This document shows, piece by piece, positions 12,104 through 53,493 of a DNA stretch of 64,000 nt. The position numbers and the translations under genes are program-made. The DNA comes from Anadara kagoshimensis (lineage: Eukaryota; Mollusca; Bivalvia; Arcoida; Arcidae). Each line of letters begins with the position of its first letter. Position 1 is the first letter of the stretch. Below the pieces are notes generated by a model. That model saw only the letters and a list, made by a program, of their open reading frames with translations, was not told the origin of the DNA and made no database searches. The DNA lies in contig CM037866.1 of the NCBI GenBank assembly GCA_021292105.1, positions 4,749,502 through 4,813,501 of the forward strand, written 5' to 3'.

Positions 12104-12925
12104 CTATGAGACGTCAAATATATCCAAGGCAATCCTGGACACAGAGACATTAAACTTATCAACAATACTGTGATGACGGCCATTAAACGTTTTGAGGGCC
12201 TTGATAAGCCTAGGCTTGCAATATCCTTGAGTCAACAATTTATTTGCAAGCAGCCTACTTCGTTGTACAAAGTCCCCGTAGTGGAAACAAGCTCTACCAT
12301 AGCGTATTAATTGGGAAACAAATACACCATAAGCAGGAGAAGCAGGTATATTGCTGCATAAAAAAGGAAAGTTGACAATAGAAAAATTGAAGTCATCACG
12401 TTTGTCATAAATTTTCAAATGTAGCCTTTCTTGTGCGTCATAATTCAGGTATAAGTCTAAATATGAAGCAGAACTTGAAGAATCAGTCGTGTCTTTTATT
12501 TCAAGCTCACTAGGATAGATGACATTTACATAGTCTCCAAATTTAGGATTGTTAAGAGACAGAACGTCATTTATGTATCTGTATGTTGAGTTGAATGATT
12601 TGGCGACAGTTTTCTTTCCAGATTTAACAAGGTTCTGCATAAATTCTGCTTCGTAAGAATAAAGAAACATATCAGCAAGCAATGGTGCACAGTTTGTACC
12701 CATTGGTATACCGATTGTTTGCTGAAAAACTATATTACCAAACACAACAAATATGTTATCTATCAAAAACGCCAACATTTTGTTGATGGTATCTTCAGTA
12801 TATTTTTGTTTGGAATCCGTATGATGCTTGACAAAATAACCATAATCCCTGTTCAGCACCAGATATTTGTATCTTGGCTTACCAATTGACCTTTTTGTAC
12901 GATGTATCAATATCTTCAGAATCAA
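12104..12925 (-). pseudogene. Reverse transcriptase of a Penelope-like element, catalytic residue lost
   Basis: A 273-codon frame covers the RT palm and beyond. GIPMGTNCAPLLADMFLY is RT motif 3/4 in its Penelope-like form. The active-site box reads YINDVL where YIDDVL is expected, so the first catalytic Asp is Asn. Then come ELEIKDTTDSSSSASYLDLY, IYDKRDDFNFSIVNFPFLCS and a C-terminal thumb-like part (SQLIRYGRACFHYGDFVQRS). The frame stops with no GIY-YIG endonuclease behind it. Canonical Penelope elements have a C-terminal GIY-YIG; members with the nuclease at the N-terminus are known, so an N-terminal arrangement is possible here but unproven. Frameshifted sequence continues toward 13331. 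Confidence 0.75.
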
Positions 12926-33489: not shown

Positions 33490-34550
33490 ATCAGATAGTG
33501 GAATTTTGAACTTAATTTTGAACTTAGACAAATATTGGATCTTAATACGTGAAATTGATAAAGAAGTCTACTTGTTAAAGTGGATTGTTTTAACGACTTT
33601 TGAATTTAGTTTATAAGAGACTGGATTTAAAAAAAAACCACGTGTGGTTTAAGACTTACTTATGTTGTGATTAGTTCAGTTCAGGTATTCAAAAAACCTT
33701 GATTTGTTTTGAATTTAAAGGTAGGTGTATATACTTTATAATTTAAAAAAATTAAATGTTAAATTTAGATTTTTTAAATTTTAAATATCTTGCCATTTCT
33801 GATTATTTCAATTTTCGTTGTCAATTTGTAAGTTAAACTAATATACATGTGAAACATTGACACACTAAGGCAATGGTATTTATTAAAATAATATCTCGTC
33901 CCATTTACAATCATTTCATAACTAATATTTTCATTAACTTAAATCTGGTTTATTTTAAATATATTTATTGTTTTAAAGATATTTGTGTATCCAATGTGTC
34001 ATTTTGAAAAACAGCCAAAGCTTATTACAGCTATATTTTACCCCACATTTTTTATTAGGTAGTAACTAAATATTGCAAATTTATAAAATTTTAGTTAAAG
34101 AATGATTGTCAAACTGGACCCCGATACACTTACATGCAGCAACACGAGTATTCACACTGAATGTAAGAATATGAATCAAGTTGATCTATGTGTGAGAAAA
34201 TTTGTCATTTCGCCCACTGAGGGTCGGTATTATTTTCCGGACACTCCAGTTTCTTCTACCACCTTAGAACTGGCGTCCTAATATAAGTAAAGGAATCTTG
34301 ACCGGGGATGTAAATACCATTACCGAATTCAAGTATGTGATTAGTAAAGAATTCAATCCCAAACAGGTCTCTACTAAAACTATTTTTCTCGACAGCTATT
34401 CAAATATCTTAAAATTTAGATTTCAAATTTTCCAAAGTTAAGCAAAAATTTTTTGAAATTGAAGTATAGACTACAAATCTGGTAAAAGAGTACAAAAAGT
34501 TGAAATCAAATAAGATTTACCCATATGCTAATCCGTCTTAAAATGTACCT
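33490..34550. other. No gene seen; SINE-A-like fragment at 34185-34330
   Basis: The fragment includes 'gagaaaatttgtcatttcgc', 'tttccggacactccagtttc' and 'cgtcctaatataagtaaagg'. The rest is AT-rich without exons. Confidence 0.5.
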
Positions 34551-34677
34551 ACGGTACAGGCTTGTCGAAAAATCATCGAACCATCCATTGAATACCAAAT
34601 CAGCATCTCGACCCCTTCCCAGCAACATCGCGAAAACTGCTACCTATCTACTTATCCATATTATATATTTTGGTTCA

Positions 34678-34723
34678 AGCACTACTGATGAGGAATTGTA
34701 TTCCGCAACGGCCGTCTAGTGCT
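34678..34723 (+). ncRNA. Hammerhead ribozyme copy 1 (core variant)
   Basis: Stem I is AGCACTA paired with TAGTGCT; the core is CTGATGA; stem II is GGAAT-TGT-ATTCC. The second core strand is GCAA where GAAA is required. Stem III is the palindrome ACGGCCGT, followed by cleavage triplet GTC before the stem I 3' strand. The A-to-C change in the invariant GAAA probably abolishes cleavage. Confidence 0.88.
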
Positions 34724-35016
34724 GTAAAATTAAAACTGGTATAATATGTAATTTAAACCACTGAGCCGATATCTCTTTTGATGGCTGGTGCCCCGAGGAT
34801 ATCACAAACTCAGTAGGCAATAATTTCGTATTATTGACAGAAATATACATTAATTGTCAAAATTTCCTGCAAGATAAAATTTGAATTTTCTCAAAAACTA
34901 ATGTATACTCCCTCATGCAAAGTATTTCCTTAGCTTAATTTGGTAAAATATATTTTGGTCCTTTGGGTAGCTATTCAACATCTTCAAAATAGTTTTGGTT
35001 TCATAATTTTGGTTCA

Positions 35017-35062
35017 AGCACTACTGATGAGGAATTGTATTCCGCAACGGCCGTCTAGTGCT
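35017..35062 (+). ncRNA. Hammerhead ribozyme copy 2 (core variant)
   Basis: It is identical to copy 1, including the GCAA core variant, so the substitution was shared before or during array duplication. Confidence 0.88.
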
Positions 35063-35355
35063 GTAAAATTAAAACTGGTATAATATGTAATTTAAACCAC
35101 TGAGCCGATATCTCTGTTGGTGGCTGGTGCCCCGAGGATTTCACAAACTCAGTAGGCAATAATTTCGTATTATTGACAGAAATATACATTAATTGTCAAA
35201 ATTTCCTGCAAGATAAAATTTGAATTTTCTCAAAAACTAATGTATACTCCCTCATGCAAAGTATTTCCTTAGCTTAATTTGGTAAAATATATTTTGGTCC
35301 TTTGGGTAGCTATTCAACATCTTCAAAATAATTTTGGTTTCATAATTTTGGTTCA

Positions 35356-35401
35356 AGCACTACTGATGAGGAATTGTATTCCGAAACGGCCGTCTAGTGC
35401 T
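35356..35401 (+). ncRNA. Hammerhead ribozyme copy 3 (canonical core)
   Basis: Same stems as copies 1 and 2 but with an intact GAAA core, so every invariant nucleotide of a type I hammerhead is present: CTGATGA, GAAA and GTC at the cleavage site. Stem III (ACGGCCGT) is only a 2-bp hairpin in one molecule but self-complementary over eight bases between two. Confidence 0.92.
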
Positions 35402-35508
35402 GTAAAATTAAAACTGGTATAATGTGTAATTATAAGCAACTTTTGACGACTAGCTATTCATATTTTGGCTAATCGACAGTCGAGCTTTGACTCCTTTCCT
35501 AACAATGT

Positions 35509-35838
35509 GGTAGCTTAATTGGTAGAGTGTTCGCTCTGTATGTGGGAGGTTATGGGTTCGAACCCCAGTCAGGTCCTGACCAAAATTTAAAAAAAGGTAG
35601 CTACTGTTCTTTCACCAAGCACTCGACATTTAGAAATGAAAGTCACCGGGTCCTTCATAAAAGATCTTAAAAACCGATGCCCCATGTCGCGATATGCACG
35701 TACGTCAAAATAAAAAAAATCTCCCTGTACATTGGCCTGAGCGCACTGTAAAGGTCAAAATTTCTACTTCACCAATAGCTGGTGACGTCCCGATATTAGT
35801 GAAATATTCTAGATTGCATCGCAACGCCCGATTCAACC
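35509..35838 (+). mobile_element. SINE-A copy
   Basis: A box TAGCTTAATTGGTAGAG and B box GGTTCGAACCCC are clear. The body ('cttgtcgcgatatgcac'-like) and tail ('gacgtcccgatattagtgaa') follow. Confidence 0.82.
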
Positions 35839-43905: not shown

Positions 43906-43980
43906 CCACATCTAAGTGCACTTTTTTTTCTCGTGTCGTCATTTCCGGAACAAGTGTAGAATTTATGTAGATAGAGAAAG

Positions 43981-44368
43981 TGAAAAACTAAACTTGTTTT
44001 CTATGCTTTTTCCCAGATATAACGTTAAATCTGAAAATGTGCGTGCCCTCGCACACTTAAATGGAAATTCAGTTGTTTTTATGCTATTTCCCAGAGTATA
44101 GGTTAAATTTTGCGTCAATTTATTTTTGCAAGAATATCTGCAAACCTTGTATGAGACGTCGAATTTTGGACAAGTGAAAAACTAAACTTGTTTTCTATGC
44201 TTTTTCCCAGATATAACGTTAAATCTGAAAATGTGCGTGCCCTCGCACACTTAAATGGAAATTCAGTTGTTTTTATGCTATTTCCCAGAGTATAGGTTAA
44301 ATTTTGCGTCAATTTATTTTTGCAAGAATATCTGCAAACCTTGTATGAGACGTCGAATTTTGGACGGA
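43981..44368. repeat. 194-bp tandem duplication
   Basis: The sequence beginning TGAAAAACTAAACTTG at 43981 repeats from 44175 with almost no differences through 'gacgtcgaattttggac'. Each unit also contains two related half-units ('ctatttcccagagtatagg' and 'ctttttcccagatataacg'). Confidence 0.93.
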
Positions 44369-45641: not shown

Positions 45642-45790
45642 TTCCTAATTTCTGTTGGTCCTTTGGATATTTCTCAACATCTTGAAAAATTTGGTTTTAC
45701 AATTTTGGTCCAAGCACTGCTGATGAGAAAATGCATTCCGAAACGGCCGTCTAGTGCTGTAAAATTAAAACTGGTATGATATGTAATTTT
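45642..45790 (+). mobile_element. Solo retrozyme-like fragment
   Basis: About 150 bp matching the junction region of the 339-bp monomer: 'tgttggtcctttggatattt', 'ctcaacatcttgaaaaat', the hammerhead, then 'gtaaaattaaaactggta'. The rest of the monomer is absent. Confidence 0.82.
45713..45758 (+). ncRNA. Hammerhead ribozyme copy 4 (solo, weakened stem II)
   Basis: CTGATGA, GAAA, ACGGCCGT and the GTC cleavage triplet are all intact. Stem I is AGCACTG with TAGTGCT, containing one G-T wobble. Stem II is GAAAATGCATTCC, with mismatches, so folding should be weaker. Confidence 0.85.
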
Positions 45791-47965: not shown

Positions 47966-48095
47966 TTTTTACATCATCTTTCTTTCCGGAGCGTAAATTT
48001 AAACTGGTATAATATGTATTACAACGCCCACATGGAATAGAATAAGAACATAGGGAAACATGAAGAATTCATTGTCATTATACTTTCTATTTTAG

Positions 48096-49817: not shown

Positions 49818-50590
49818 ATTTTGCATAGCGCAATCAAAACCTGATAGAAAGAAAAGACTTGTAACGGGTTTACCGATTTTAGAAGGAAGAAACGACAAAG
49901 AAAAAGGAGAAATCATGGTATTCCTAAATCTACAGGAAAAATTTTGGTTTATGGTTCTTGAATGCTTCCCAGAATCCAAAACGCAGGCGCGCATTGCAGA
50001 AATGAAATCACGTGGTTTCAAACACGTGCAAAAAGAGGTTTTGAAAATAACGGACGTACTTGGTGGTAATGAAAACAAGTTCTTTCGACGACCGCCACCT
50101 GTTCAGACTAAACCTAAACCATCTGGAGGAGGATTTGAAATTTACGATGGAATGAAATGGAAAATTGAAGTAGTTGACGATATAAAAGTAAGCTTTGATA
50201 GTGATTATTTTGAGAATAAGGAACTACATTATTTCAGACATCTACCAGAATGCTATAGAAAATTTGTTATAGAACCCAAAACCAATGATGAAAGGTCGAT
50301 TAGCGGTGCAATAAACTTATTACCAATGGACATATCAGATCAAAAGTTGAAGGACGCAGCGACCTTCACCTTGAGAATTGACATTGACGAGGAGACAGTT
50401 CGTGCCTATTTCCGCCCTGACGTCATACCAGAAGAACCGGAACCGGAAAAAGAGAAACCGAATTTGGATTTACTTAATTCTATGACACAAAAAGAGACAA
50501 CACCAGTGCTGCCAACTATACAGAAATTTAAACCACTCCCACCACTTGTCATGGAAAGACTTATGAAACCAACCAGAAAACCGTTAATAG
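49818..50590 (+). CDS. Exon e of the ZU5-ZU5-UPA-Death protein: UPA region and acidic linker
   Basis: Between 'ctgtttcag' and CCGTTAATAG|gtgagc, entering in phase 2 and leaving in phase 1 (residues about 302-559). GEIMVFLNLQEKFWFMVLEC, GFKHVQKEVLKITDVLGGNE and later FEIYDGMKWKIEVVDDIKVS, ELHYFRHLPECYRKFVIEPK and ATFTLRIDIDEETVRAYF form the beta-rich UPA-type segment that follows ZU5 in UNC5, PIDD and ankyrins. A Pro/Glu-rich linker (EEPEPEKEKP) leads to the Death domain. The reading frame past the donor runs to 50718 but loses domain-like character there. Confidence 0.87.
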
Positions 50591-50839
50591 GTGAGCATTG
50601 TTTCTGCATCTCAACAACCAATAACATGATATTATATTGGTTTTCAGCATTTTCCTGTTCACAAAACATGGTCGGACTTGGCCGAGTGGTACTGTCACTG
50701 GCTTTCCTTTCAAAGTAGAGGGACTTAAAAATTTTTTGAGATGATTTTCATCTCCTGTCCATACTAGAGCTGTAAAAAGCTGAATACTAGAATAGTCTTT
50801 CAATTACATATTATACCAGTTTTAAATTTATATTGAGAC

Positions 50840-50975: not shown

Positions 50976-52672
50976 GAAATAGACTAAGCAAAGTAGAAAA
51001 GATGTGATAAAACCGAGGTATCTCCTATCCTTAGTTAGGAACTCGTGGATTTCGAATTCATCTCATTCGATTACTACGCGTACATACATAACGAAGTCAC
51101 GTGTCTATCATGTGGATTACACTATATTATCTGGAAAAAAGCATTTTTAAAGCGTCGGTCTAAATTCAAACTTTATCGTCCTTTAATAGTAAGATTTGCA
51201 CGAAGCATTCTTTCTTACTAGGGATATAGCTAGACTTTGCAAGGTTTTTTCCTCAGAATTTTCAAAATTTCAAAAAAAATACCTTTTAATTGAAAATAAA
51301 AACTTTGATTTGTTTACTCCTTCTTCGTCACTAGTGTTTCGGTCAATGATTACGTTCCAGTTGTAGACCCATAGAAACTGTTCGACTCCGAGAACGGATT
51401 GAAATGTCCGAAAACAAGCATAAAAAGGTTTGAAGCATTGGTCAAATGTTACTTTACTTTCATTCCTTCATGTTGTATGCATACATTTATATTGAAGTCA
51501 CATGTCCATTGGCAATTATGTACAAAATCTCTAGTCTAGTTTCGATATCGCATATATTCTCAATTTATCTAAAAGAAGAAAAGAATAATTTCTTTTTATT
51601 TTAATTATGTAAAATTCATTAACTCATGCCATGCACGTACTAAATAATCGACTTTATAATTTAATAATTGACTGTTCTAAAGCAGATTCTGAAGTGCCAG
51701 TCCAAAATACAAAATACAGAATTACAATGCCATTTCATTCTTAAACTGTACTTTGCAAAATGTTTCAGAAATTTAGAATCAATTCTATGTATGCAAAAGT
51801 AGAAAAGTTAAAATTGGAAGTGTTTCATCTCTTCTTCTGCTGTTGTTATTTAAATATCGTTTCTCTTTTGGTTAAAATTTTATATTCTATTATAAAACGT
51901 TTCAAATGTGGACCAACAACCAATGTCCGACTCTCTTTTTCAATAGATCAAAATATCCGAAAGTAAACAAGAAAAATTTCAAACATTGGTCAAATGTCAC
52001 TTGTACTTTCATGGTGTTTGATCCTGTTTGAGTAAATATTTAGAATTTCATTGTTATTTAATTTTGTTCTGCCTAAAATAGGATTGCATATAAAGGGTAG
52101 CAATTTCTGAGTTTATTCAACACATTTACAGTACGTCACGCATACAATCTTGTTTCCGGTCCGGAAGTAAATATTTATTGTCACGTGACTTCGATTTTTC
52201 TTTGTATTGTTTGAAATCCATATGAAAGAAATATCATATCTTTTTATAGCTTCAAGACCAAGAGGTAACGTCATAAAAGTCGATATTGTTTTGTTAAATA
52301 ATGGACTTCATAAAAACTCTTTAGATCTAGCTTAATTTATAAAATAATACAATATTTCCTAAACCGAGAACCGGAAAGGATCAATTCGCCATTGTTAAGC
52401 ATGATTGAATGTTCGCTTCAAAATATTATTGATGTATTTTTTGTATTTCCTGTGTATTAGATTCTCGTCTTTGGAAACAAAAAGCCTCTTTCAATAGTTT
52501 GAGATCGTTTTAGATTTCGATAATTAAATGTAGCATTTAAAATGACAGGCAGAATTGGTTTTATACTTTACTGGTGACACTTGAATGAAACGGTTGAAAA
52601 TTGAATAATTTACATTGATTTTGCAAAATTACCTATTGTTTCGTGTTAATACACTATTACATTTAATACACC

Positions 52673-53493
52673 ACTTAAGAAAAATCTGCAGATGGAATTC
52701 CGATGTTTCCTTAAACCGTTTTTCATTAACTTATTAAAAAGTACATAATGTTTCTATAGCCATAAATAATTATGATATTGGTGTATTTTGCAAAATACAT
52801 GTATATTTTTGTCTTTTTTCTCATTTTTACGTTTTGAAAATAGTTCACATTAATACACCACTTAAGAAAAATCTGCAGATGGAATTCCGATGTTTCCTTA
52901 AACCGTTTTTCATTAACTTATTAAAAAGTACATAATGTTTCTATAGCCATAAATAATTATGATATTGGTGTATTTTGCAAAATACATGTATATTTTTGTC
53001 TTTTTTCTCATTTTTACGTTTTGAAAATAGTTCACATTAATACACCACTTAAGAAAAATCTGCAGATGGAATTCCGATGTTTCCTTAAACCGTTTTTCAT
53101 TAACTTATTAAAAAGTACATAATGTTTCTATAGCCATAAATAATTATGATATTGGTGTATTTTGCAAAATACATGTATATTTTTGTCTTTTTTCTCATTT
53201 TTACGTTTTGAAAATAGTTCACATTAATACACCACTTAAGAAAAATCTGCAGATGGAATTCCGATGTTTCCTTAAACCGTTTTTCATTAACTTATTAAAA
53301 AGTACATAATGTTTCTATAGCCATAAATAATTATGATATTGGTGTATTTTGCAAAATACATGTATATTTTTGTCTTTTTTCTCATTTTTACGTTTTGAAA
53401 ATAGTTCACATTAATACACCACTTAAGAAAAATCTGCAGATGGAATTCCGATGTTTCCTTAAACCGTTTTTCATTAACTTATTAAAAAATTTA
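52673..53493. repeat. 187-bp satellite, four full copies and a partial one
   Basis: The phrase AAAAATCTGCAGATGGAATT starts at 52680, 52867, 53054, 53241 and 53428, an exact 187-bp period. I see no differences between the first four units, so amplification is recent or the array is kept homogeneous. The array breaks off after 'ttcattaacttattaaaaa', and a diverged extra piece ('aatgtttctatagccatga') follows at 53518-53570. Confidence 0.97.

Follow-up and report, generated by a model that had tools for sequence, protein, structure and literature searches.

Within a 64,000-nucleotide stretch of Anadara kagoshimensis DNA (the window), we found a short tandem array that is a metazoan-type retrozyme, a real member of an already known class. 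Nearly all of its sampled relatives in the same genome share one 3' end, fixed beyond the hammerhead cleavage site, and their 5' ends are scattered. Our main reading, to which we give a probability of about 0.6, is that the element is non-coding and non-autonomous and that its RNA circle would be reverse-transcribed from an internal start, most likely by a Penelope-like enzyme.

The array and its hammerhead motifs

Tandem Repeats Finder detected in the window a repeat of period 339 at 34667–35431 (2.3 copies, 98% matches), and its first two units differ at 4 of 339 positions. The tandem 339-bp repeat described in an earlier note was thereby borne out; of the span given there, 34666..35428, the array stood, while the limits moved to 34667 and 35431. 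The array is low in GC (33.5%) and non-coding, its longest stop-free stretch being 49 codons, and no reverse transcriptase or GIY-YIG reading frame, as carried by Penelope-like elements, was found in it. Two traits of metazoan retrozymes, a tandem unit of 150–450 bp and one type I hammerhead per unit, were present. Together with the composition, the short stop-free stretches and a large dispersed family, they agree with the retrozyme-like element that had been proposed. Elsewhere in the window, perfect tandem repeats at 52663–53488 (187 bp, 4.4 copies) and 43978–44365 (194 bp, 2 copies) are very recent amplifications. The features referred to below are:

34667..35431, + strand: retrozyme array, 765 bp, 2.26 units of 339 bp; starts at unit position 253 and stops at the family's fixed 3' end
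34657..34666, + strand: extra 10 nt CATATTATAT at the 5' junction; not present at L111, the empty paralogous site; probably a TATA duplication with filler
34676..34724, + strand: hammerhead copy 1; core GCAA, not GAAA; nominal cleavage after 34716
35015..35063, + strand: hammerhead copy 2; core GCAA, not GAAA; nominal cleavage after 35055
35354..35402, + strand: hammerhead copy 3; intact core; nominal cleavage after 35394
35395..35431, + strand: 37-nt tail, running from the cleavage point as far as the terminal TGTAATT, the end common to 74 of 79 elements with a visible right flank (33–37 nt)
45647..45789, + strand: second retrozyme copy, 5'-truncated; same 3' end; motif at 45711–45759 with two non-pairs in the model stems
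47995..48018, + strand: tail-only match, 24 bp; probably an extremely truncated retrozyme copy
50798..50830, - strand: tail-only match, 33 bp; probably an extremely truncated retrozyme copy

The three type I motifs lie 339 bp apart, each with the 7-bp stem I, CTGATGA, 5-bp stem II and GTC that had been read in them. The claim of a hammerhead in every unit stood for the motif but, judged from the letters, is not supported for a working core in each. In two of the three, copies 1 and 2, a C replaces the second base of the core element GAAA, and this base is needed for cleavage. Full-length motifs from the fetched loci and the window numbered 151 (L017, L023 and L026 left out as duplicates); 140 were ungapped, 120 of these had an intact core, and GCAA occurred in the two window copies and in one motif of L080.

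A covariance model built from 24 motifs typed at other loci of the same genome scored the window copies at 82.4 bits (35354), 76.5 bits (34676) and 76.5 bits (35015). The value for copy 3 is high by construction, because the model's first row, the commonest form, is letter-identical to it, and copies 1 and 2 are close kin of the model's motifs. With the same model a fourth window motif, missed in the earlier note, scored 66.8 bits at 45711–45759, its core letters intact. The Rfam hammerhead gave no gathering-score match in the window and nothing at E ≤ 10 in 34500–35600; as it was likewise silent on L013, L044 and L053, loci with intact motifs, this silence is uninformative. The pattern CTGATGA-N8..30-GAAAC was found twice in the window against 0.23 expected, and two or more occurrences arose in 2 of 100 shuffles. 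Searched in viral contigs, the hammerhead motif gave 0 stretches.

Stems I and II form in the predicted fold of copy 3, and stem covariation did not rise above shuffles. When 28 units were folded as circles, stem I was predicted to form in 21, and the last bases before the 3' end were predicted to lie in a weakly closed loop in 17 of the 25 listed folds. The stability of the circular folds was not clearly above that of shuffles (-66.4 vs -60.2, sd 6.1).

A fixed 3' end and scattered 5' ends

Searching the assembly (1.115 Gb, 36 contigs) with the 339-bp unit returned other copies, as the earlier note had foreseen: at least 142 matches on many contigs from 40 scored of 3276 candidates, a large dispersed family. 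The second copy (45647–45789) gave at least 40 matches from 40 scored of 4542 candidates. Both counts are lower bounds, because only 40 candidates were scored per query, and the loci carry a sampling bias, having been reached through the unit, the tail or a Penelope search (L053, L064, L067).

Boundaries were determined by chaining matches to one unit (as found from L013) into 92 elements, from which 7 with duplicated flanks were dropped to leave 85. The right flank is visible in 79, and 74 of these terminate at unit position 335–339, that is 33–37 nt past the cleavage point (302); the other five end at 216, 243, 256, 311 and 313. Elements of 678 bp or more, in which the phase of the query cannot select the 3' end, have the same one in 14 of 15 cases; the exception, L035, is chained to an adjoining divergent piece. 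TGTAA is followed by T in 59 of 61 cases and by a further T in 46 of 61, after which the sequence is mixed. The 5' ends are scattered in 68 elements, 44 of which exceed one unit in length, up to 4446 bp or 13.1 unit lengths. At L082 three retrozyme tails lie 551–552 bp apart in a compound tandem unit; two of them belong to truncated copies of 110–112 nt, followed by identical non-retrozyme sequence. L035 and L048 show signs of a short-unit subfamily in which roughly 100 nt of the 339-nt unit are missing after the tail.

Inside arrays, units run across the cleavage site unbroken and in 339-bp phase, so the template must have been joined or uncut there. Unit identity between arrays averages 96.46%; within arrays it was higher in 18 of 20 multi-unit arrays (duplicated loci included), in L017, L022 and L023 only slightly, while L024 equals the mean within rounding and L027 falls below it. 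The window array mixes two cores, GCAA in its first two units and GAAA in the one at the 3' side; this speaks against a single circle without later change, and could reflect gene conversion, later duplication or a template switch.

A fixed 3' end with variable 5' ends is also what ordinary target-primed reverse transcription yields. It would arise without a circle if a LINE-type or other enzyme began at the 3' end of a linear multimeric RNA that finishes in TGTAA, and linear multimers from an already homogeneous source array would give homogeneous arrays likewise. We nevertheless regard this account as rather unlikely: the end lies away from the hammerhead cut, where ribozyme-made 3' ends lie, sequence beyond TGTAA is kept in phase inside arrays, and among the 12 loci fetched out of 76 tail-pattern sites there was no second element with this tail. 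The idea of a tail common to an autonomous partner had been raised by the window's two matches to the tail alone. It was rejected, as all 12 of these loci were retrozymes.

Under the circle reading preferred here, the 5' ends would mark where the enzyme stopped. In a narrower set of 56, the hammerhead takes 11 ends where 8.8 are expected; the densest 4-nt cluster holds 6 ends, a size matched in 83 of 5000 simulations. In a wider set of 69 the corresponding count is 17 against 10.9, with 8 ends within 4 nt just 3' of stem II (matched in 4 of 5000 simulations); this set was assembled when the cluster was already known. It comes from 95 chained elements, of which 81 were kept, and also admits elements whose 3' end is cut off or decayed, plus one L064 piece. 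From both sets 12 ends at unit positions 118–145, where the short-unit subfamily diverges, are omitted. The modest excess 3' of stem II points to the folded ribozyme as a possible stop for the enzyme.

The insertion site

In a search with the joined 229-nt flanks of the array (40 scored of 71 candidates), one other place matched in full (229/229, 89%): L111, which lies on the same contig at a distance of about 210 kb; the remaining matches were short right-flank pieces or the window itself. The empty paralogous site reads CTTATCTATAAGCAAC, while the window at the same site reads CTTATC, CATATTATAT, the element, and then ATAAGCAAC. Compared with it, the window picks up again at TATAAGC on the right of the element and carries the 10 extra nucleotides CATATTATAT on the left. 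The array is therefore an insertion. As the paralogous stretch (G000:C10:4585724-4585874) has the retrozyme copy found at 45.6 kb in the window (99%) but lacks the array, the array is probably younger than the duplication. A tRNA-like stretch at 35504–35576 (+), scored by Rfam tRNA at 26.3 bits, under the cut-off of 29, is perhaps a SINE; it belongs to a repeat that has related copies in other parts of the window, and the empty site carries it as well.

The empty site changes several details of the earlier note, which had described a full retrozyme insertion splitting a MITE, possibly with an ATTATA target duplication. The insertion holds; full it is not, as the array begins part-way through a unit (253). 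A split MITE is not supported by the flank matches given above or by the 600-nt flanks, which are without a long inverted repeat (best 18 nt, 94%, E 0.002). ATTATA was not recovered as such; read from the letters, the junctions most simply fit a 3–4-bp TATA duplication plus filler.

Copies dispersed over many contigs, with differing flanks and one common 3' end, also leave little room for a satellite DNA spread through unequal crossing-over with the hammerhead as a passenger, and the empty site disfavours it further. Head-to-tail arrays and high within-array identity would fit such a satellite, and some copies have multiplied together with their surroundings (L010/L017/L023, L019/L026), yet we consider it very unlikely.

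The target of L019 is a satellite; the site lacks a few bases relative to the satellite monomers, with TATC shared at the 5' junction. Across 61 pairs the best adjacent flank match was 2.15 nt on average, and shuffled pairings gave 1.88 (sd 0.12), so target duplications are not constant, and a general duplication was rejected on this comparison. Where metazoan retrozymes have target duplications, these are longer than 4 bp; here, matches of at least 5 nt were observed in 3 of 61 pairs, the window included, against 1.7% of control pairings. The 3' end of Helitrons carries CTRR. A Helitron-like rolling-circle DNA transposon with tandem internal repeats would account for the fixed 3' end with the T that follows it (59 of 61), the tandem arrays and a weak or absent target duplication, but is hardly credible with scattered 5' ends and an end, TGTAA, that differs from CTRR.

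Penelope-like elements, the proposed route and known systems

A GIY-YIG search of the same genome gave 50 places, of which 30 were fetched. By script, minimal CTGAAGA...GAAA hammerheads were detected past the reading frame in 20 of these 30, in families A, B and C; in some other Penelope-like members the motif is mutated. By eye, a CTGATGA...GAAAC...GTC motif was seen in L054 and L055 (family D). Positions of the 3' ends were counted by hand from the hammerhead cleavage point. In family A, 18 of the 43 longest matches end at +42 and the other 25 at +48 to +71, where the query stopped; the later ends fall in TA-rich sequence in the copies inspected. In family B, 12 of the 44 longest end at +56 to +67, six of them at +64, and L051 ends at +33, while most others end later or elsewhere. 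Family C ends at about +40 in L069 and L076 and later in the other four, and family D at +67 in 32 of 41 matches, but there the query stopped 2 nt later. Copies of families A–C often abut TA runs, whereas the listed right flanks of retrozymes do not.

Two inverted family B pieces, G000:C11:16993746-16993834 and C11:17238491-17238579, end at query position 190, which is the hammerhead cleavage point. In the window itself, the ORF 12104–12925 (-) resembles a Penelope-like reverse transcriptase, with a tblastn match of 95.7% over 161 aa to DNA beside L051 and weak matches to L054–L056. Pfam gave no match to the window ORFs 12104–12925 and 49915–50718; in ORF 301–1449 it detected an alkyl sulfatase dimerisation domain.

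A hammerhead followed by a short tail, a trait of Penelope-like elements, is thus seen in the retrozymes at 33–37 nt (74/79) as architecture only, not as membership; as read from the sequences, the two tails would show a likeness of architecture rather than proof of partnership. The boundaries of the retrozymes are what a circular template with internal initiation predicts, a 3' end fixed beyond the cleavage site. In the proposed route, array RNA would be cut at each hammerhead into 339-nt monomers, which may be joined into circles, a step reported in other retrozymes of animals. Inside the circle, 33–37 nt past the hammerhead junction, a reverse transcriptase would start, most likely one from a Penelope-like element, with DNA synthesis beginning at A/T-rich target DNA. 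It would then run round the circle for a variable distance and stop at scattered places, somewhat more often than expected at the hammerhead.

In the accessible text of PMC11167929, an Anolis Penelope-like protein starts reverse transcription in vitro at an internal site past the hammerhead, on A/T-rich ATT targets, and this start is tied to the genomic tail. The same text describes the hammerhead as dispensable for in vitro insertion, so priming may do without ribozyme cutting. PMC7229834 proposed that circles serve as templates and named Penelope-like elements strong candidates, a view repeated in PMC7761336; in the portions available, the proposal rests on co-occurrence and a common hammerhead type. 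More tentatively, and with less than even confidence, we suggest that the arrays could be frozen records of rolling reverse transcription by a Penelope-type enzyme, with a fixed start 33–37 nt past the junction, a ribozyme-made circle, up to 13 rounds and the folded hammerhead as a preferred stop.

The closest descriptions are those of the non-LTR retrozymes of Mytilus galloprovincialis in the available text of PMC7229834. They too are non-coding, low-GC tandem repeats with one type I hammerhead per unit and many copies, in a genome with Penelope-like elements; likened by description, their unit is 350–390 bp against 339 bp here. Expression and cleavage have been demonstrated for the Mytilus retrozymes, whereas the present family is known from genome sequence alone. 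The hammerhead repeats of newt and axolotl, as described in the same text, are similar in their tandem units of about 330–350 bp, type I hammerhead and short stem III; compared by description, stem III has two pairs here and one pair in one of two axolotl groups. Minimal-hammerhead Penelope-like elements, in the accessible parts of PMC11167929 and PMC3846280, resemble the retrozyme in tandem or partial-tandem copies, in a hammerhead close to the end, with the 3' ends some tens of nucleotides beyond it, and in A/T-rich targets. Unlike them, the window retrozyme is non-coding, has a different hammerhead and shows no TA-run preference, and one main 3' end stands against their optional extension.

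The words tail, truncated and priming are absent from the main text of PMC7229834, and the fixed 3' end and tail are not described there. In the literature covered, mostly papers available without subscription and without their supplements, no fixed 3' end or tail of animal retrozymes was found, which does not establish its absence from print. A Penelope-like route for animal retrozymes had thus already been proposed, and the boundary anatomy is useful as added mechanistic evidence. If the route is true, the parasite would have in its retrozyme tail an equivalent of the Penelope tail. Any retrozyme-bearing genome can be examined for the predicted anatomy, with its 3' end at a set distance past the ribozyme, its scattered 5' ends and its lengths of several units, and so can the published in vitro Penelope-like system, which makes the question of retrozyme mobility a testable one.
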